Part shown: in pieces, positions 15,247-25,288 of the stretch | How the letters are laid out: each line of letters begins with the position of its first letter | Numbering within the stretch: position 1 is the stretch's first letter | Source: Shewanella sp. MTB7 | GTDB taxonomy: Bacteria; Pseudomonadota; Gammaproteobacteria; Enterobacterales; Shewanellaceae | Reading direction: 5' to 3' | Length of the DNA: 64,000 nucleotides | Assembly (NCBI RefSeq): GCF_027571385.1 | Contig: NZ_CP085636.1 | Span: 1,798,001-1,862,000, forward strand | Position numbers and translations under genes: made by a program | The notes under the pieces: generated by a model | Told to the model about the DNA's origin: nothing | The model's input: only the letters and a program-made list of their open reading frames with translations | Database searches by the model: none

Positions 15247-16341
15247 ATGCAACAAGATACGATAAATAATGTTCATATCAGTTCAGAGAAAGTGTTGGTG
15301 ACGCCTCAGGAGTTAAAGCTTGAGTTGCCTCTGTCTGAGCATGCATACCATTATGTGCTTAATGCCCGTAAAACTGTCGCAGATATCGTACATAAACGTG
15401 ATAATAGAGTCTTAATCGTAGCTGGCCCATGTTCAATCCATGATATTGATTCAGCCAAAGAGTACGCGCTTAAACTGAAGAAACTGCACGATGAGCTTAA
15501 TGATGACTTTTACATCTTGATGCGAGTTTACTTTGAGAAGCCAAGAACGACAGTAGGTTGGAAGGGGATGATTAACGATCCAGATATGGATGAATCATTT
15601 GATGTGGAGAAGGGACTTCGTCAAGCTCGTGAGTTAATGATCTGGCTTGCTGAACTTGGCTTGCCCGTTGCGACCGAAGCGTTGGATCCAATTAGCCCTC
15701 AGTATATGTCAGAGCTGGTCTCCTGGTCTGCTATTGGCGCGAGAACGACTGAATCTCAAACTCATAGAGAGATGGCGTCGGGTTTATCAATGCCGGTAGG
15801 TTTTAAAAATGGTACCGATGGTAAACTTGGTGTCGCGATTAATGCGCTCGAGTCTGCGGCCAGTAGCCATCGATTCATGGGGATTAATCAGAAGGGGCAG
15901 GTAGCTTTATTGCAAACAGCGGGAAATCCTGACGGTCATGTGATTTTACGTGGTGGGAAAACACCAAACTATGATGCCCAAAGTGTTGAGATTTGTGAGC
16001 GTCAGCTGCACAGTGCAAATTTAAATGCTCGCTTAATTGTCGATTGCAGTCATGGAAACTCTTCGAAAGATCACCGTAAACAAAAAGGTGTCTGTGAAGA
16101 CGTTTTTAAGCAGATTTTATCAGGTAATCAATCTATTATTGGTGTCATGCTTGAGAGTCACCTCAATGAAGGTAACCAAAGTAGCAATAAACCTATGAGT
16201 GAACTCACTTACGGTGTGTCAGTGACTGATGCCTGTATTGATTGGGCAACGACAGAGCGGTTATTACGTGAAGGTGCAGTATCATTATCTTCTGTACTTA
16301 CAAGCCGATTCGATATACCAAATAAAGTGGTCAATGGTTAA
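15247..16341 (+). CDS. aroF: 3-deoxy-7-phosphoheptulonate (DAHP) synthase, class I-alpha
   Basis: This enzyme joins phosphoenolpyruvate and erythrose 4-phosphate in the first step of aromatic amino acid synthesis. The 364-residue protein has the class I-alpha motifs RVLIVAGPCSIHD (metal-binding Cys), RVYFEKPRTTVGWKG, GARTTESQTHREMASGLSMPVGFKNGTDG and IVDCSHGNSSKDH. The ATG at 15247 is preferred to the GTG at 15238. The gene lies just before tyrA, which suggests it is the tyrosine-responsive isozyme, as in E. coli; the feedback specificity itself is not read from the sequence. Confidence 0.95.
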   Translation: MQQDTINNVHISSEKVLVTPQELKLELPLSEHAYHYVLNARKTVADIVHKRDNRVLIVAGPCSIHDIDSAKEYALKLKKLHDELNDDFYILMRVYFEKPRTTVGWKGMINDPDMDESFDVEKGLRQARELMIWLAELGLPVATEALDPISPQYMSELVSWSAIGARTTESQTHREMASGLSMPVGFKNGTDGKLGVAINALESAASSHRFMGINQKGQVALLQTAGNPDGHVILRGGKTPNYDAQSVEICERQLHSANLNARLIVDCSHGNSSKDHRKQKGVCEDVFKQILSGNQSIIGVMLESHLNEGNQSSNKPMSELTYGVSVTDACIDWATTERLLREGAVSLSSVLTSRFDIPNKVVNG

Positions 16342-16400
16342 TATTTTGACTGTCGGTTTTCACTGAGCTTTTGTACACCTTCTTGATGGAAAGATAAACA

Positions 16401-17540
16401 ATGAACGAACGAACAACGGCCGATCTGGAAAACCTACGAGGTCTGATTGACAGTGTCGATCAGCAGCTGCTCAATTTATTAAGAAAGCGTCTGGATTTAG
16501 TCGCTCAAGTTGGTGCGGTTAAACATAGTGCTGGTTTGCCTATTTATGCGCCCCAACGAGAAGCAGCTATGCTGGCTAAACGTCGCGCTGAGGCTAATGA
16601 AATAGGCGTGTCACCTCAGTTGATTGAGGATATTCTACGCCGTTTGATGCGGGAATCTTACCTCAATGAAAGAGATGTCGGCTTCAAGCAAATTAAAGAA
16701 AATTTGGGCCATGTGGTGGTGGTTGGTGGAGAAGGAAAGTTAGGTGGCTTGTTCTCGCAGATGTTACGTCTGTCAGGTTACCAAGTCGAAACATTGGATA
16801 AAGATGACTGGGGTAATGCTGAGCAGATTTTTGATGGTGCTGGTTTAGTCATCGTGACCGTACCTATCGCCATTACCTGTGAGTTAATTCGTGAACAACT
16901 TACTACATTACCTGAAACTTGTATCTTGGCCGATTTGACATCGATTAAGAGCGAACCAGTCAATGCCATGTTAGCAGCGCATAAGGGACCTGTTGTAGGC
17001 TTACACCCAATGTTTGGCCCCGATGTAGGTAGTTTAGCAAAGCAGGTTGTGGTGGTGTGTCATGGGCGAGACAGTGATAAGTATCAGTGGCTGCTTGAGC
17101 AGATCCAAATATGGGGGGCACGAATTGTTGAAGCTGAGCCTGAGAGACACGATAAGGCGATGCAACTAGTGCAAGCTATGCGACATTTCTCCTCTTTTGT
17201 TTATGGCTTAAACCTCTATAAAGAGGAAGCAGATATAGAGAGCTTACTGCAATTTAGTTCGCCTATTTATCGTCTCGAACTTGCAATGGTAGGTCGTTTA
17301 TTCGCTCAAAGTCCTGAGCTCTATGCTGATATTATTTTTGCTCAAAAAGAAAGTATGCAAGCGATCGGTGATTATTTGGATAACTATTCCCATGCATTGT
17401 CATTGTTACAAGCTGGCGATAGGGAGGCTTTTGTGGCTCAATTTAAAGAGGTAGCTCAGTGGTTTGGTGACTTTGCTCCTCAATTTCAACGTGAGAGTCG
17501 TGCCATGCTGCAGTCTGTCAATGATATGAAAACCGACTAA
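16401..17540 (+). CDS. tyrA: Bifunctional chorismate mutase / prephenate dehydrogenase
   Basis: TyrA (T-protein) converts chorismate to prephenate and then to 4-hydroxyphenylpyruvate, toward tyrosine. The 379-residue protein has an N-terminal AroQ-type mutase (residues about 5-90: [27 protein letters not shown] and [10 protein letters not shown]) and a dehydrogenase domain with the NAD-binding loop [17 protein letters not shown] and [12 protein letters not shown] with the substrate-binding residues. It lies 59 bases after aroF and is presumably in the same operon. A terminator follows. Confidence 0.97.
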
Positions 17541-17569
17541 TCAGCAATAGATTGATCAATTATACCAAT

Positions 17570-17593
17570 GGGAGCTTAGGCTCCCTTTCCTAT
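17570..17593 (+). terminator. Terminator after tyrA
   Basis: GGGAGC, loop TTAG and GCTCCC form a tight stem followed by TTTCCTATTT, 30 bases after the tyrA stop. Confidence 0.65.
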
Positions 17594-17781
17594 TTATCGT
17601 TATCTCTTCACTCTTTTACTTACTATCTTTGCCGCTCTTTCTTTGATACTTGTAATTTAGCTATCTGCAATGTAATTGGTATATGTCGATTCGTTTTGAT
17701 GAATTTGATCTACCTCAAACTTTCAGCTATTAAATCAAATTCCGCTATCTAAGTGACAATGCTTACCTTTACACTAGCTTT

Positions 17782-17806
17782 AAACATGCAAATTAAAAGC
17801 ATGATT
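17782..17806 (+). promoter_or_regulatory. Candidate NsrR-like operator upstream of hcp
   Basis: CATGCAAATTAAAAGCATG (17785-17803) is an imperfect palindrome. It agrees at roughly 16 of 23 positions with the gammaproteobacterial NsrR consensus, with the same spacing between the ATGCA-type half-sites. NsrR is the nitric-oxide-sensing repressor known to control hcp-hcr. The assignment is by similarity of pattern only. Confidence 0.5.
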
Positions 17807-17825
17807 AAAATTAGGAGCAGTAGCA

Positions 17826-19490
17826 ATGTTTTGTATTCAGTGTGAACAGACAATTAGAACTCCAGCAGGAAATGGCTGTAGTTACTCTCAAGGTATGTGT
17901 GGCAAGCTTGCAGATACTTCAGATCTACAAGATTTACTTATCTACTTGTTGCAAGGGGTGTCGGCTTACGCTGTTAAAGCCCGTGAGTTTGATATTGTCG
18001 ATAGCGAAATTGATGCCTTCGTGCCAAAAGCCTTCTTTGCGACTTTAACCAATGTAAACTTCGATGATGATCGCCTGCTTGATTACGTCAAACAAGCCGA
18101 TGTTTGTCGTAATCGTCTGAAAGCAGCCTATGAAGAGGCATGCAAAGCAGCAGAGAAGTCGCCTGAACTGTTAAGTGCTCCGTCACAATTAATCTTAGGT
18201 GCAACTAAACCTGAGATGTTAGCGCAAGCCGTTATTGCTGCACCAAACCGAGGAAAAGCGGATATTCATGAAGATATTCTTGGCTTACGTCTGCTTTGCC
18301 TTTATGGCTTAAAAGGTGCGGCTGCTTACATGGAGCATGCTCGTGTACTTAGCCAAACTGATGTTGATGTTGCTGCTCGTTTCCATGAGCTGATGTCCTT
18401 TCTAGGCGAAGATTCAGTTGATGCCGATAAATTATTTTCCGTTGCGATGGAGATAGGTCAACTGAACTACCGTGTCATGGCTATGTTGGACGAAGGCGAA
18501 ACATGTGCCTTCGGTCATCCTGAGCCAACTCAAGTGAATACTGTGGCGATTAAAGGTAAAGCTATCTTAGTGTCTGGCCATGACATGGTCGATTTAGCGC
18601 TTATTCTCAAGCAAACAGAAGGTAAGGGAATCAATGTCTTTACTCATGGCGAGATGCTACCAGCGCTCGCGTACCCTGAGCTGAAAAAGTACCCACACCT
18701 TGTCGGTAACTATGGCAGCGCTTGGCAAAATCAACAGAAAGAGTTTGCTAATTTCCCTGGTGCAGTAGTGATGACCTCTAACTGTATTATCGATCCTAAT
18801 GTGGGTGATTACTCTGATCGTATCTTTACTCGCAGCATTGTTGGTTGGCCTGGGGTTACGCATTTAGTTGGTGATGATTTTTCTGCTGTTATCGAAAAGG
18901 CACTTACGCTTGAAGGCTTTATCTATGACGAGATCCCCCATCTAATCACCATAGGTTTTGCTCGAAATGCATTGATGGCAGCGGCCCCTGCAGTGGTTGA
19001 GAACGTGAAGAATGGTTCAATTAAGCACTTCTTCTTGGTTGGTGGCTGTGATGGTGATAAGGCTGAGCGCAGTTACTTCACCGATATAGCTACTCAGGCG
19101 CCAAAAGATTCTGTGATTTTGACGTTGGGCTGTGGCAAGTACAAGTTTAATAAGCTTGAATTTGGCGACATTAATGGTATTCCACGTTTACTTGATATTG
19201 GCCAGTGTAATGATGCGTACTCTGCAATCCAGCTAGCCATCGCGTTGTCTGAAGCTTTCGATTGTGAGATTAATGAGCTGCCTTTAAGTATTGTACTTTC
19301 ATGGTTCGAGCAAAAAGCGATTGTCGTTCTGCTGACGCTGCTGTCACTGGGCGTGAAAGATATCCGCACTGGCCCAAGTGCACCAGCATTTTTAACCACT
19401 AATTTATTAAATGTGTTAGAGGATAAATTTGGGCTTCGCGGGACGACGACAGCTGAAGAAGATCTTAAAACTATCTTAAACGTCGCATAG
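17826..19490 (+). CDS. hcp: Hybrid cluster protein (NO / hydroxylamine reductase)
   Basis: Hcp carries an unusual [4Fe-2S-2O] hybrid cluster and acts in nitrosative stress, reducing NO (and in vitro hydroxylamine). The 554-residue protein has an N-terminal cysteine set C3, C6, C18 and C25 (CX2C, X11, C, X6, C), the spacing of the E. coli type that binds a [2Fe-2S] cluster. Hybrid-cluster residues appear in the conserved blocks [32 protein letters not shown] and [11 protein letters not shown] and in an [10 protein letters not shown] region. It is followed by hcr, its reductase. Confidence 0.97.
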
Positions 19491-19507
19491 TTTTAAATGT
19501 AGCTGTA

Positions 19508-19543
19508 GATCAAGGCTCTCTTATGTGGGCCTTGGTCAATTTT
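19508..19543 (+). terminator. Hairpin between hcp and hcr
   Basis: GATCAAGGC and GCCTTGGTC form a 9-bp stem (one G-T pair) followed by AATTTTTA. It probably lowers read-through into hcr rather than separating the operon completely. Confidence 0.6.
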
Positions 19544-19592
19544 TAGCATTAACACTTACACCAAACTCTTTTCTAAAATGAATGGAAACAAA

Positions 19593-20690
19593 ATGAGCAC
19601 AGATACTCTTTCTAAGCTTGATATTGATGAAATAAAACTGACATCGCCAAATTGGCAACATGGTGAGGTTGAGCTTTTATGCGTAGAGAAGTGGCATGAA
19701 ACCTTTGATGTGATTAGTTTTCGTTTTCAGGGAAAGAGTCCAGTCAAGTTCCAGTTTAAACCCGGACAGTTTTTGACTTTTGTTCTTGAAATCGATGGTG
19801 AGCTTGTTCACCGTAGTTACACCATTTCTTCATCTCCCTCACGCCCGTACTCTATAGTGGTGACCATTAAGCGTATTGAAGGTGGTTTGGTGTCGAATTA
19901 CCTTGCTGAGTCCTTGCTGGTTGGCGATTGTGTAATGGCTACGGGTCCTGATGGGCTATTTAATCTTGTCGATATTCCCGCTAAAAAATATCTATTCTTA
20001 AGTGCCGGTAGCGGTGTTACACCCATGTACTCAATGACGCGTTGGTTGGTTGATACACAAGTGGGGGCCGATATCGCTTTTCTTCATTGCGCCAAGAGCC
20101 CGGAGGATCTTATCTTTAGGGCTGATTTGGATAAGATTAATTACAACAATCCTAAGCTGTCGCTAAGTTATATTATTGAAACGAGTGCTGAAAGTTTGCC
20201 TTCTGAACAAGTTTACAGAGAAGGGCGTATCAATGGGAAAAGTTTGATTGAGCTTGTTAGTGATTTTCAAGAAAGAAGGGTATTTGTTTGTGGCCCAACA
20301 CCTTTTATGTTTTGCGTGCACTCGTTATTGAGCGAACTAGGTTTTGATATGTCTCAATATCATCAAGAGAGTTTTGGTGATGCCCCAGCTAAGCTTGTCC
20401 CTGCATCACATGTTGCTGAGCTTAATGAGTCAAGTGGCTTTATGCTGAGCATTGATGATCGTCAACGTGTGCTGACATCAGATCAAAGCTTGCTCGAAGG
20501 CATAGAAGCGGAAGGTTTGCCTATCATCGCCGCATGTCGATCTGGCGTGTGTGGCGCGTGTAAATGTCAGGTGATCAAAGGAGAGACTGAATCTTCGAGT
20601 CAGATGAGCTTAACGCCTGAGGAAATAGCACAAGGTTTTGTGCTGGCTTGTTCTACTAAGTTAAGATCCGATGTCACTTTAGTCCTCTAG
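19593..20690 (+). CDS. hcr: NADH oxidoreductase Hcr
   Basis: Hcr passes electrons from NADH to Hcp. The protein has a ferredoxin-reductase part with the FAD motif HRSYTISSSP and the nicotinamide loop SAGSGVTPMYSM, then a C-terminal plant-type [2Fe-2S] ferredoxin domain with CRSGVCGACKC and a fourth Cys in LACST. I prefer the ATG at 19593 (365 residues) with GGA upstream; the in-frame ATG at 19578 adds five residues. The hcp-hcr pair is the conserved arrangement. Confidence 0.94.
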   Translation: MSTDTLSKLDIDEIKLTSPNWQHGEVELLCVEKWHETFDVISFRFQGKSPVKFQFKPGQFLTFVLEIDGELVHRSYTISSSPSRPYSIVVTIKRIEGGLVSNYLAESLLVGDCVMATGPDGLFNLVDIPAKKYLFLSAGSGVTPMYSMTRWLVDTQVGADIAFLHCAKSPEDLIFRADLDKINYNNPKLSLSYIIETSAESLPSEQVYREGRINGKSLIELVSDFQERRVFVCGPTPFMFCVHSLLSELGFDMSQYHQESFGDAPAKLVPASHVAELNESSGFMLSIDDRQRVLTSDQSLLEGIEAEGLPIIAACRSGVCGACKCQVIKGETESSSQMSLTPEEIAQGFVLACSTKLRSDVTLVL

Positions 20691-21554: not shown

Positions 21555-23543
21555 TTATTGGTACAAGTTTCTTAATAACTCGCTGTGACTGGCAAGCTCA
21601 GTGTCAAACTCACTATTTTCAGATGAGAAATTCAAGATTAAACCATCGGCATTGAGTTGTTTTCCTGCTACTGAATGCGGTAATAGTGTCTGTTTATTCG
21701 ATGCATAGCTTGGATTGATTAAGACAGGTAGATGAGTTATAGCCTTGATATTCACTAAGGCGGCCAGATCGAGGGAGGGCATGATTGAGTCACTGAACGT
21801 TCTTATGCCTGATTCACAAAGTATCAGTTGTTGATTCCCCTGGGCTAGCACTGTCTCTGCTGCAGTTAAAAGCTCCTCAACACTTGCCATGGTATTACGC
21901 TCCAATATCACAGGGATATGCAGTGAACCAACTTGCTTTAGTAAGGTCTTGTTGTGCATCTGCTTACCTGTTATCAGCAAAATACTGGCATGTTCGGTGG
22001 CAAATTTGAGCTCTGATTCATGTTCGACTGAAATGATGCATTCAAGGTCAAATTGATGTAAGGCTTTTTTAAACTCAAGCACATTTGATTTTAGATTAAC
22101 CTGATGAGATAAGCCCTCTAAAATGACGGCCTGAAACCCTGCTTCTTTCAGTAATTTAGCTTTATGACTATAGCGATCGCTCTCTTGTGGTAGGGAGATA
22201 AGTGCAATGGCACCAAATTGTCCATCACCGACTTGTAGTTGACCTATGGTTACCTCAGTCACATCTGTTTTATGCGCTTTACAGTATCTTAATTGCTCGT
22301 TGTTAAGAGCGCTGTTTTGTACTGTCACTTTATTTGAGTGTTCAGCCCGACTGGTGTCGGGCTCTATCATTAACTGGCTGTTAGTTAATTGCGTCGGGCT
22401 GACAGTTTCGCAGGGATAACAGCCTAATACTTTAATGAAACGTGTGATACGTTCAAGTTCTTTGAGCGCCGATTGCATCGCATCACTGGCTAGGTTTGCA
22501 TCGAGATCCAGATAAAACATCTCTTCCCAAGGGGTACCTGGAATAGGGCGTGATTCGAGCTTGCTCATATTCAAGTTGTGAGCTTTTAAGACTAAGAGGG
22601 CTTCTACCAACGCACCAGGCTTTTGGCCTGTCGCCATGATCAAGGTTGTTTTGGCCGGTAGTTGCTCTGGGACTGTAATGGCTTTTCTGGCTACAACAAT
22701 AAAACGGCTTTGATTGATTTTCTGATTTGCTAAATCTTGTGCGATTGCTTCAAGTTGATAAAGGGCACCGCCTTCAGCGCTACCAATGGCAGCGACAGTT
22801 GGGTCGTCATTGTCTACGACTTTCTGCATGGCCTCAGCACTGCTGGAACAGTACTCAAGTTTATAATCTGGGTGAAGACTCAGATATCGGCTACATTGAC
22901 TGATAGGCTGAGGATGAGCGTAGACGGTTTTTATTTGGCTTAGTTTATTACTGTTTTTAGCCAGTAGGCAGTGGTCCACTTCTATTGTTGTTTCGCCGAT
23001 TATGGCTAAACTCGTATGTTGCAGTACATCATAGACCTCATTAATAGAGCCAGATGAAGTATTTTCTATTGGAAGAAATCCATAGTCAGCATGACCAGAC
23101 TCAACAGCTTGCACGATTTCGTCAAAACTTTTGCAACCTAAGTCTTGCATATTAACCTGTCTGCGATTGCAGTAACGATTGGCTGCCAAGTAGGAGTATG
23201 AACCTCTTGCACCTAGATAAGCGATGTTGTATTGCCGCTTCTGAGTATCTGGGTTAGCACGGCTTTGTAGGTAGGCTTGCTGGTTGAGAACAGAGTCTTC
23301 GATAATGCTTTGGTATAAAGAGATAACATAGTGAGCATCGAGACCTTGTTCACGACCTTGTTTAACTAATCGAGAAAGTAATTCCTTTTCTCTTTGGGTA
23401 TCACGTATAGGACGAATGTCTACCTCTTTACTGCGGGCGACGTCCAAACTGAGCTCTCGTCTTTTAGCCAATAGTGCCAGTAGATCTCTATCTAGTGAAG
23501 TGATCTGTTCACGGGTATGATTCAAAGGCTGTGGTTTGCTCAT
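21555..23543 (-). CDS. pheA: Chorismate mutase / prephenate dehydratase with C-terminal DAHP-synthase-like domain
   Basis: PheA (P-protein) turns chorismate into prephenate and then phenylpyruvate. The start at 23543 (MSKPQPLN) has AGAGGA upstream and gives 662 residues; typical P-proteins have about 390. Order: AroQ mutase (about 1-90), prephenate dehydratase (about 105-280, with GARGSYSYLAA, ENTSSGSI and QSRFIVVARK where the usual Thr-Arg-Phe is Ser-Arg-Phe), ACT domain (about 300-375, GALVEALLVLK and ESRPIPGTPWE for Phe feedback). The last 230 residues resemble class I-beta DAHP synthase (LQVGDGQFG, LLKQVGSLHIPVILERN, LILCESGIRTF, LDLAALV, HLPVLINPSY), but GPCS, KRG and DPSH motifs are replaced, so this part is probably inactive. 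It is preceded by an attenuator with leader peptide pheL. Confidence 0.95.
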   Translation of the reverse strand: MSKPQPLNHTREQITSLDRDLLALLAKRRELSLDVARSKEVDIRPIRDTQREKELLSRLVKQGREQGLDAHYVISLYQSIIEDSVLNQQAYLQSRANPDTQKRQYNIAYLGARGSYSYLAANRYCNRRQVNMQDLGCKSFDEIVQAVESGHADYGFLPIENTSSGSINEVYDVLQHTSLAIIGETTIEVDHCLLAKNSNKLSQIKTVYAHPQPISQCSRYLSLHPDYKLEYCSSSAEAMQKVVDNDDPTVAAIGSAEGGALYQLEAIAQDLANQKINQSRFIVVARKAITVPEQLPAKTTLIMATGQKPGALVEALLVLKAHNLNMSKLESRPIPGTPWEEMFYLDLDANLASDAMQSALKELERITRFIKVLGCYPCETVSPTQLTNSQLMIEPDTSRAEHSNKVTVQNSALNNEQLRYCKAHKTDVTEVTIGQLQVGDGQFGAIALISLPQESDRYSHKAKLLKEAGFQAVILEGLSHQVNLKSNVLEFKKALHQFDLECIISVEHESELKFATEHASILLITGKQMHNKTLLKQVGSLHIPVILERNTMASVEELLTAAETVLAQGNQQLILCESGIRTFSDSIMPSLDLAALVNIKAITHLPVLINPSYASNKQTLLPHSVAGKQLNADGLILNFSSENSEFDTELASHSELLRNLYQ

Positions 23544-23582: not shown

Positions 23583-23672
23583 CATTTTCCCTTGACCTCT
23601 ATGGAGGGAATGTCTTAAAGATGTCGGGGACATCTAAGATCTCAGGGAAATTGACATAAGTGTTCCTGACAC
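23583..23672. repeat. Small palindromic repeat within the pheA leader
   Basis: CTTGACCTCTATGGAGGGAA, then GATGTCGGGGACATC and TAAGTGTTCCTGACAC belong to a short palindromic repeat that recurs at about 1905-1985, 5148-5212, 23855-23930 and 39733-39790. This copy lies between the pheL terminator and the pheA start. Confidence 0.6.
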
Positions 23673-23699
23673 AAAAAAGCCTCCCTAGTGGGAGGCTTT
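23673..23699 (-). terminator. pheA attenuator terminator
   Basis: On the minus strand, AAAGCCTCCC, loop ACTA and GGGAGGCTTTTTT form a strong intrinsic terminator 40 bases after the pheL stop. Upstream, GGAATTTT (about 23733-23740) and AAAATTCC (about 23699-23708) can pair instead, giving the alternative fold expected in attenuation. Confidence 0.85.
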
Positions 23700-23739
23700 G
23701 GAATTTTCATTTTCGTTTTTACACCAAAATTCCGCCGCC

Positions 23740-23793
23740 CTATTTGGGTGGAATAAAAAAGAAAATAAAAAAGTGAACTATAAGTGGTTTCAT
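23740..23793 (-). CDS. pheL: Phe leader peptide
   Basis: A 17-codon ORF reads MKPLIVHFFIFFFIPPK, with five phenylalanines among six consecutive hydrophobic positions, then a TAG. It lies between a promoter-like sequence and the attenuator hairpin upstream of pheA, exactly as E. coli pheL does. Ribosome stalling at the Phe codons when Phe-tRNA is scarce would prevent the terminator from forming. The peptide sequence differs from that of E. coli, but composition and position make the assignment strong. Confidence 0.9.
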   Translation of the reverse strand: MKPLIVHFFIFFFIPPK

Positions 23794-23854: not shown

Positions 23855-23960
23855 TGCACAAATGTTCCAGACAAATTACTACATCTTTCCATCCATGGGG
23901 TGTGGCATAAATGTTCCTGACATGAAAAAGCGTACCTTGGAGGTACGCTTTAGATTTAAA
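23855..23960. repeat. Palindromic repeat plus hairpin between raiA and pheL
   Basis: ACAAATGTTCCAGAC, CCATCCATGGGG and CATAAATGTTCCTGACATG form another copy of the small palindromic repeat. AAAGCGTACC, loop TTGG, AGGTACGCTTT (23928-23953) follows and would be a terminator on the minus strand, with TTTTT next to it. It may end the raiA-side transcript. Confidence 0.6.
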
Positions 23961-24029
23961 TTATTAAAAATCAAACTAATATTTCCTCCTTTGGTTATCA
24001 AAAGCTATTATTTTGTTATGTAGTGACAG

Positions 24030-24922
24030 CTCCTTTAGTTTAATGAAAGTTTACTTATCATTTTTCATTGTACTGGTATTTACTTGAACTATGACTGTTT
24101 TAACGATGTTGCTATCGCTCCTTTTTAGCTAAAACTTTCTATCTTTTTATGATGTTTAATGGAGTTGCGATTGTTTCTAATAATGTTGTTATCGCTCCTT
24201 ATCTAGCTAAAAAATATACACTTTTATGATTTTACTTGGTTGTTACTGTTGTTATACTCCTTTGTGTAGTTGAAACCTATCTAGTTTGCATCACGCTTCT
24301 CGATTAAGGGAGACAGAAGACAGGCTTCGATTTACAGCTTGTCACACTATCAGGTGTGTTGGCTTTAAAAGCTCATTTTGCCTAGGGTTTCCTAGCTGCT
24401 TAGCTTAGGACCTTTAGAGGCTGGTATTCACCTGAGTTCTTGTTACAACTAACATTTATCGTTCTGAATTTTATAGCTAATCCAGCATTAACTGATCTTG
24501 AGGTGATTCTATTACTCCTCCTTTGTGTCGTTGAAACCTTTTATCTGCATCACTCTTCTAAATTAAGGGAGGCAAGAGACTGGCTTCGTTTTACTGCTTT
24601 CACACTATCAGGTGTATTGGCTTTAACAGCACATTTGCCAAGGGTTACCTAATCTTAGGGCCTTTAACTGACGAGTATTCACCTGAGCTCTACTTACAAC
24701 TAACTTTGAACGACTAATATTTCTACGGACTTACTTTCTAACATACAGTTAATCTACATTTCCTCCTGATTGAGTCAATCATTACACTGCTTTCTTACTT
24801 TAAGGTGTACATTGAACTTGTCGTATTGCTTTTTCGAGTATATTTCCAACTGTTTAACTGGTGAAAAGTTTCTGTTTATATTGTAGGATCCTAATTGAAT
24901 CCTAGTTCAACATTACTTCTGT
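24030..24922. repeat. Repeat-filled gap between raiA and pheL
   Basis: No gene is supported in this stretch of about 0.9 kb. Two direct copies of about 200 bp, 24251-24453 and 24508-24704, share blocks such as CACACTATCAGGTGT, TTCACCTGAG and TTACAACTAAC. A shorter module (TTGTTATCGCTCCTT, then TAGCTAAA) is repeated at about 24110, 24188 and 24250. On the minus strand these give repeated AAGGAG motifs that resemble ribosome binding sites but are not followed by start codons. A plus-strand ORF at 24440-24652 is doubtful. Confidence 0.7.
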
Positions 24923-25288
24923 TTATGCAGCAAACTCTTCATCTAATTCATCTTCAACATCGAGGCCAACGGTTTCTTCCTCTTGTCTCTTTAGTGTTTC
25001 ATGGCGTTGAGATTCTGGCTTATGGGTTAGACGATTAAGTTGTTTCTCTAATTTTTGACCCATAGCGTTAATTGCCGAGTAGAGATCTTCATGTTTTGCT
25101 TGAGCAAAAAGCTGATGATTAGGGATCCCAACAGAGGTTTCAATTTTAAATAACTGTTTCTCTTGAACTATGATGACATGTGGATTAATCAGTTGAACAT
25201 CATGTCTAGATAGCTTTTCTAAACGAGCCTGAATACGTTCACGAATAAGGGGAGTAACTTCAAGATTTTTGCTAGTGATCATTGTCAT
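24923..25288 (-). CDS. raiA: Ribosome hibernation factor RaiA (YfiA)
   Basis: RaiA binds the 30S subunit decoding region in stationary phase or cold and blocks translation initiation. The 121-residue protein has the S30AE fold: MITSKNLEVTPLIRERIQARLEKL, the central strands VIIVQEKQLFKIETSVGIPNH and AQAKHEDLYSAINAMGQKLEKQL, then an acidic tail (VGLDVEDELDEEFAA) typical of the short RaiA type rather than long HPF. It lies upstream of pheL-pheA as in E. coli, though with an unusually long gap. Confidence 0.95.
   Translation of the reverse strand: MTMITSKNLEVTPLIRERIQARLEKLSRHDVQLINPHVIIVQEKQLFKIETSVGIPNHQLFAQAKHEDLYSAINAMGQKLEKQLNRLTHKPESQRHETLKRQEEETVGLDVEDELDEEFAA

Follow-up and report, generated by a model that had tools for sequence, protein, structure and literature searches.

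The PheA protein encoded in the analyzed stretch of Shewanella sp. MTB7 DNA (64,000 nt; hereafter the window) continues past its ACT domain into a class I-beta DAHP synthase (DAHPS) barrel, which has lost all 11 published metal and substrate ligands of the live enzyme and is kept under purifying selection in the genus. The barrel most likely descends, in decayed form, from the third enzyme of an ancestral fusion, in which chorismate mutase (CM), prephenate dehydratase (PDT) and an ACT domain were followed by DAHPS, and this origin is well supported by sequence comparison. Most simply, the plain enteric P-protein of the E. coli type would have lost its barrel.

The first 385 residues of PheA resemble a conventional P-protein (Table 1). 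The CM domain scored 93.2 bits with CM_P_1, above the cut-off of 73.7, and the PDT domain scored 198 bits in Pfam and 222.8 versus 219 with PRK11898; the fold of residues 102–383 matches 6vh5 in a structural alignment. The Pfam ACT model scored below its own cut-off on PheA. Judging from PDT structures determined with Phe, the ACT domain would be the phenylalanine sensor. Residues 279–281 read SRF, as they do in one Ferrimonas protein, at a place that we take to be the TRF motif of PDT; R280 and F281 are invariant across 116 sequences. The P-protein model NF007910 covers residues 1–385 with 549.3 bits, short of its cut-off of 577, and PheA extends 276 residues past the end of this 386-position model, so the extension beyond the ACT domain described in an earlier note on this DNA is real. 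Within the linker, Q390, L391, I393, E394, P395 and S398 are each found in at least 95% of 140 aligned Shewanella sequences, and pLDDT falls below 50 at residues 393–415 of the predicted model.

Table 1. Features in and around pheA, in positions of the window.
Feature	Position	Strand	Remarks
pheA CDS	21555..23543	-	662 aa; CM - PDT - ACT - linker - putative pseudo-DAHPS barrel
CM domain, residues 11–89	23277..23513	-	Pfam CM_2; NCBIfam CM_P_1
PDT domain, residues 107–287	22683..23225	-	Pfam PDT 1.3e-58
ACT domain, about residues 297–377	22413..22655	-	
Linker, residues 387–425	22269..22385	-	Start partly conserved in Shewanella, remainder disordered in the model
Putative pseudo-DAHPS (beta/alpha)8 barrel with N-terminal hairpin, residues 431–662	21558..22253	-	
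Most constrained part of the barrel, residues 526–610 including GNQQ	21714..21968	-	dN/dS 0.043; lowest segment entropies at 526–605
Phe leader/attenuator upstream of pheA	23670..23791	-	Rfam RF01859, 81.4 bits, gathering score 55, E 2.1e-13
Separate class I-alpha DAHPS (aroF type), intact	15247..16341	+	

Profiles, PDB comparison, an AlphaFold model and structural alignment all identified the tail as a class I-beta DAHPS barrel, the likeness that the earlier note had drawn by eye. TIGR01361 matched it with 122.2 bits (E 2.4e-35), below the equivalog cut-off of 267.75, and the model has a complete (beta/alpha)8 fold with an N-terminal hairpin, that is, a TIM barrel and not another fold. The pTM of the PheA model is 0.56, so the packing of the domains against each other is not predicted by it. 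The ligands of a class I-beta enzyme, as given in the available text of PMC6362186, are C36, H206, E232 and D243 for the metal, R60, K65, R120, K141 and R171 (and S119) for PEP, and R67, T68 and D243 for E4P. We scored the 11 distinct residues, excluding S119, by an aligned count that superseded a regular-expression search for motifs. A constant offset of 421 places them at C457, R481, K486, R488, T489, R541, K562, R592, H627, E653 and D664 of P0154, a complete fusion, which carries the expected letter at each site. At the same sites the PheA of the window has S, gap, gap, I, L, K, E, S, Y, N and gap (0/11), bearing out the statement in the earlier note that the catalytic and metal-binding residues are gone.

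This loss is shared by the genus: 138 of the 140 Shewanella rows keep none of the 11 ligands and the other two keep one, and every one of the 140 has a gap where the lysine of KPRT and the arginine of RGG would stand. Elsewhere, 0–4 ligands are kept in the Agarivorans family (17 rows), 0–6 in fused Ferrimonas proteins (11 rows) and none in Paraferrimonas (two rows). The Shewanella alignment omits P0022 and P0025 (<600 aa), and fused proteins of <640 aa were also omitted. As duplicates occur, the rows are not independent; distinct sequences number 131 in the 140 Shewanella rows, 190 in the 201 fusion rows described below, 16 in the 17 Agarivorans-family rows and 10 in the 11 Ferrimonas rows, and three of the 201 fusion rows are loci, among them L106, which is P0154. 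Judged from the sequences, the homology of the tail to class I-beta DAHPS and its catalytic death are firm, and the barrel is predicted to be a pseudoenzyme and not part of a trifunctional enzyme.

Residual or new catalysis of a DAHPS-like or aldolase type is hardly conceivable. The (beta/alpha)8 fold is complete, but we rejected a still-active barrel because not one of the metal, PEP and E4P ligands is left; the DAHPS reaction is moreover covered by the intact class I-alpha gene in the window, as already pointed out in the earlier note, and by two more class I-alpha-like genes elsewhere in the genome. That note also called the tail a dead copy of the first enzyme of the pathway. It is indeed a dead DAHPS, but an origin from the resident class I-alpha genes was rejected, as the I-alpha gene scored only 24.8 bits on the I-beta model versus 122 for the tail. 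The suggested binding of phosphosugars is disfavored, since the residues published as binding phosphate have been substituted or are missing; among the functions suggested there, an allosteric or structural one would fit the sequences best. Two dead barrels from other genera, L068 of Ferrimonas (343.5 bits) and P0242 of Agarivorans (273.9 bits), exceed the TIGR01361 cut-off and are therefore likely to be misannotated as DAHPS, and Agarivorans proteins among the best 120 of 1859 matches do bear the DAHPS label in the database.

Among the matches listed, all 129 genomes of the genus Shewanella match PheA from its start to residue 593 or further, and 128 of them hold it as a single open frame of 622–716 codons; a frameshift or annotation artefact was therefore rejected as the source of the extension. 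In the remaining genome (G074, locus L084) pheA lies in two frames with a break near residue 260, and P0025 of S. algidipiscicola, found among the best 120 of 229 relatives, is a 366-aa ACT-barrel piece; either a sequencing error or a real split would account for these two. In a survey of the family (152 genomes), the matches listed contain the barrel or its remains in 8/14 Ferrimonas genomes and the plain protein in 6/14, the barrel in 2/2 Paraferrimonas genomes, plain PheA in two of seven other genomes and no clear PheA in the remaining five. G144 is P. sedimenticola, the PheA of G130 is 99.7% identical to P0126 of Ferrimonas balearica, and the protein of G140 bears the conflicting label Marinobacter hydrocarbonoclasticus. 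In the order (197 genomes), at least 36 genomes carry a barrel or a degenerate tail, divided among the matches listed into 13 Shewanella, 1 Ferrimonas, 12 of the Agarivorans/Aliagarivorans/Alginatibacterium family and 10 others. Three of these (G207, G164 and G225) keep 11/11 ligands and the other scored barrels at most six; the scoring covered part of the Shewanella genomes in this survey. The phylogenetic survey suggested in the earlier note thus places the extension in Shewanella, Paraferrimonas, Ferrimonas, the Agarivorans family and more distant fusions.

To estimate selection, dN/dS was calculated from a set of 68 sequences, with dS by the Nei-Gojobori method and the Jukes-Cantor correction; L076 and L079 of Ferrimonas failed the motif filter and L087, a divergent Shewanella locus, was omitted. 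In nine disjoint Shewanella pairs, dN/dS was 0.023 for CM-PDT-ACT, 0.145 for the linker, 0.075 for the barrel (codon bootstrap 0.058–0.095) and 0.043 for its core at residues 526–610, and 25 overlapping pairs gave the same picture. Three pairs of the Agarivorans family gave 0.006 for CM-PDT-ACT and 0.024 for the barrel. The barrel is under purifying selection in Shewanella and is maintained in the Agarivorans family also. In two Ferrimonas pairs the values were 0.22 for CM-PDT-ACT and 0.49 for the barrel, and the latter is a rough estimate because CM-PDT-ACT is likewise high.

These values bear on the reading of the barrel as a functionless, decaying tail, the 'pseudogene' of Song et al., 2005, which we consider very unlikely. 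It finds its best case in Ferrimonas, where the barrel is relaxed and decaying, its ligands run down from 6 to 0 of 11 and six genomes have dispensed with it; there, 'pseudogene' is roughly right. In Shewanella, the single open frame in nearly every genome and a dN/dS whose upper bound lies far from the neutral value of about 1 make the term wrong, and the Agarivorans family is more constrained still. A passive relic is disfavored for Shewanella unless foldability alone, through avoidance of the harm done by a misfolded tail, is selected.

The distribution of constraint over the barrel differs between live and dead versions. With faces assigned from DSSP segments of the predicted model, the loops of the catalytic face have a mean entropy of 0.38 in live barrels versus 1.83 in Shewanella, and those of the opposite (bottom) face 0.92 versus 1.12. 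The difference between the faces is significant with opposite sign in the two sets (permutation P 0.0012 for live barrels, 0.0015 for Shewanella). As 59 representatives of one genus were set against 145 live barrels from many phyla, only the reversal in sign is given weight here, and not the entropy values as such. Constraint has flipped from the catalytic face in live barrels to the opposite face in Shewanella. Within the extension, G569 and N570 (of GNQQ) and P606 (of HLP) are invariant in 116 aligned proteins.

Several former ligand positions have become fixed in new states in Shewanella: K to E548 in 138/140 rows, D to N610 in 135/140, H to Y613 in 126/140, R to S578 in 123/140 and R to K527 in 116/140. 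The changes K to E and D to N are also found in 17/17 Agarivorans-family rows and in P0246 and P0248, and all five sites lie at or just past the C-terminal ends of strands in the model. The mouth of the old active site may accordingly be imagined as a ligand sensor, which would bind a small molecule other than PEP or E4P and regulate PheA, adding another effector site to that of the ACT domain. That these positions are fixed and not drifting, that two of the changes recur in other lineages and that the sites lie near strand ends speak for such a sensor. We nevertheless regard it as unlikely, because the 15 sites of the whole old pocket are not significantly more conserved than the barrel average (permutation P 0.073), the catalytic-face loops are overall the less conserved ones, the pocket wall is partly missing at the RGG and KPRT positions, and the replacements at the Cys and second Glu positions are scattered.

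The source of the barrel was sought with the best-preserved Ferrimonas barrel as query. Among the best 120 of 7711 matches were many proteins of 670–720 residues joining CM, PDT and DAHPS, from Permianibacter, Aliikangiella, Iodidimonas, Melioribacteraceae, Ignavibacteria, a Gemmatimonadaceae MAG and Bacteroidota MAGs; NCBI names several of those listed bifunctional DAHPS/chorismate mutase. The lists of protein relatives hold the best 120 of 229, of 7711 and of 1859 matches, and proportions taken from them describe the listed relatives, not nature. In the aligned fusion rows, 190 of 201 keep 11/11 ligands, nine keep 10 and two keep 4, the last being the dead, Agarivorans-like P0246 and P0248. 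Shewanella PheA shares the domain set and order of these CM-PDT-ACT-DAHPS fusions, and since its barrel is not catalytically complete, it would be a decayed descendant of their lineage.

Trees were built from hand-picked sets of 71, 73 and 45 rows; the 73-row tree dropped 17 rows of the 71-row one, mostly as redundant and two for length. In the barrel tree (45 rows), a branch with support 100/99 parts the fused barrels from 12 stand-alone I-beta barrels, so that one fusion suffices among the few stand-alone barrels sampled. The latter include the second gene of Ferrimonas, a stand-alone class I-beta DAHPS found in 14/14 genomes of that genus at 364.6–373.9 bits (L036–L049), above the curated cut-off; an origin from this gene was rejected because it falls in the separate clade. 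In the CM-PDT tree (73 rows, rooted on distant P-proteins), the deepest enteric-type branches are complete fusions and one degenerate version (G188), and a 58-row clade (98/95) mixes fused and plain proteins, including close relatives of E. coli pheA such as L174, about 77% identical to it in DNA. A single clade of the 24 plain proteins is incompatible with the data (AU p 0.0002), and this tree requires the barrel to have been gained or lost no fewer than nine times. Its deepest branching order is not settled, as long branches meet there. Taken together, the two trees make losses a simpler reading than gains. Among the 44 barrel-bearing rows of the CM-PDT tree, 33 are dead and fall into four maximal clades, so catalysis would have been lost at least four times if its loss is irreversible.

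No barrel debris was found near plain pheA in six Ferrimonas and two other plain loci, where no match was better than E 0.067. Among the matches listed in the class and phylum samples, there was no CM-PDT-to-barrel match outside the domain order of the window. L159 (G575) and L144 (G355), from genomes that do not belong to the order, each have a plain pheA with a distinct class I-beta DAHPS gene in frame behind it, some ten codons or a short gap further on. These are two neighboring genes and not fusions, and a fusion could arise from such an arrangement.

We lean towards the interpretation that the barrel is the dead remainder of the former three-enzyme fusion, kept as a structural or allosteric scaffold of PheA. 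In the ancestor, a single ACT domain, the Phe sensor, would have stood between the branch enzymes and the entry enzyme of the pathway. Barrel catalysis would then have lapsed several times in the gammaproteobacterial order of Shewanella, permitted by redundancy with class I-alpha isozymes at a time when the barrel was already part of the oligomer. Some lineages, namely the E. coli type and one Ferrimonas branch, would afterwards have dropped the barrel, while Shewanella and the Agarivorans family would have kept it under purifying selection. The barrel may pack on the rest of the oligomer through its bottom face (the alpha-beta loops, GFQ, GNQQ and HLP) and the C-terminal helix; so packed, it would stabilize the PheA oligomer and shape how ACT-bound Phe shuts down prephenate dehydratase and chorismate mutase. 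We infer this scaffold function, as we do the role of the ACT domain and the reason for the loss of catalysis. At least one further PF00793 gene of at least 340 codons is present in 20/20 genomes. As the three genomes whose fusion is complete are among them, redundancy by itself does not determine whether catalysis is lost.

The order of ACT domain and barrel equals that of regulatory domain and barrel in the chimera 4grs and in the T. maritima-type enzyme; when residues 301–662 of the model were superposed on chain 1–328 of 4grs, the relative placement differed (rmsd 15.3). That a chorismate mutase can depend on an I-beta barrel fused to it has a precedent in the P. gingivalis DAH7PS-CM: once the two are split apart, the CM Km climbs about 11-fold, from 19 to 207 µM, according to the available text of PMC12202928. 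Against a scaffold, the barrel is dispensable in principle, since it is absent from 6/14 Ferrimonas genomes and from the E. coli type, and the fused Ferrimonas barrel evolves far more freely by its rough dN/dS; a pure scaffold also does not predict that E548 and N610 are fixed in new states.

The conserved bottom face would suit docking, in which the barrel holds another aromatic enzyme, such as a class I-alpha DAHPS or TyrA, much as chorismate mutase is bound by DAHPS in M. tuberculosis. Complexes of these two enzymes are known from the available text of PMC4281200 and PMC7762937, but a pheA-tyrA neighborhood occurs in E. coli too, whose PheA has no barrel, and we give docking little credence. 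In the window itself, the aroF-tyrA and pheA block at 15247–20690 is broken by hcp-like (17826–19490) and hcr-like (19578–20690) genes, both named by eye. Returning to the scaffold, its fullest form holds that the E. coli-type P-protein is a cut-down trifunctional enzyme, that the barrel lost its catalysis independently in several lineages but stayed in place, and that Shewanella PheA regulates itself through the dead barrel, retained as an allosteric scaffold; this combined proposal is a tentative one, which we do not quite regard as probable.

The Phe leader upstream of pheA, whose peptide reads MKPLIVHFFIFFFIPPK by eye, implies that the gene is probably also under transcriptional control by the Phe supply. 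A 2009 scan of Shewanella likewise lists a leader upstream of pheA in its available text (PMC2659441). Between this leader and the gene at 24923–25288 (a ribosome-hibernation factor by eye), the minus strand of 23930–24920 has two tandem copies, 80% identical, of an element of ~200 nt, together with six AAGGAG boxes and a hairpin that resembles a terminator by eye. Rfam gave no match at E 0.5 or better in 23930–24920, and none of the other loci compared, many of which include little upstream sequence, contained a 12-nt motif taken from the element. The tandem element is possibly an uncharacterized structured RNA.

The fusion in S. oneidensis was noticed by Song et al., 2005, who, in the available text (PMC1173090), called it "bizarre" and entered it as 'Fusion of aroQ-pheA with aroAI-beta pseudogene of unknown origin' in the Shewanella line. 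Their aroQ-pheA-aroAIbeta belongs to the same protein family as the PheA described here, with the I-beta class already recognized. While they placed the gain in the Shewanella line, the barrel appears to be older, as Paraferrimonas, Ferrimonas and the Agarivorans family have it too, and it is under purifying selection in Shewanella. The same text states, with data not shown, that the AroQ-PheA proteins of the lower gamma group are set off from those of other proteobacteria by the length of the linker and by indels; both observations would be explained if the former were a lineage of their own, descended from a fusion. The fusion was thus known as an oddity of S. oneidensis, and its likely source lineage, retention, repeated death and flipped constraint are new. 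In the open-licence literature, to which our search was confined, subscription papers lying outside it, no account was found of the lineage of complete fusions, of how widely the barrel is distributed, of the selection on it or of the descent of the plain enteric P-protein.

Among known systems, the E. coli P-protein (NF007910) has CM, PDT and ACT in the same order and a Phe leader upstream, but lacks the barrel. The complete fusions, such as P0154 (Permianibacter), P0176 (Melioribacteraceae), P0145 (Aliikangiella) and P0218 (Iodidimonas), share the order at about 670–720 aa and, carrying all 11 ligands, are presumably trifunctional, whereas the Shewanella barrel carries none. In T. maritima 1rzm/1vr6 and the chimera 4grs, class I-beta barrels with an N-terminal regulatory domain are enzymes, as are those fused to CM in Listeria 3nvt, Geobacillus 5j6f and P. 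gingivalis DAH7PS-CM. Unlike the barrels of these last enzymes, the Shewanella barrel is dead and placed after the ACT domain of a prephenate dehydratase. QutR and QA-1S are fungal repressors built of dead shikimate-pathway domains; they resemble PheA in that dead aromatic-pathway domains are kept for regulation, but they are transcriptional regulators, derive from other enzymes and belong to another kingdom.

The dead barrels that pass the NCBI DAHPS model expose annotation errors. Complete, half-decayed, dead-but-kept and lost versions of one fusion coexist in related bacteria, several of them within the one family of Ferrimonas, Paraferrimonas and Shewanella. This series is a natural experiment on the passage from enzyme domain to scaffold, and it makes a curiosity of 2005 testable. 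It also suggests that PheA of the E. coli type, on which feedback inhibition has been modeled, descends from a three-enzyme protein.
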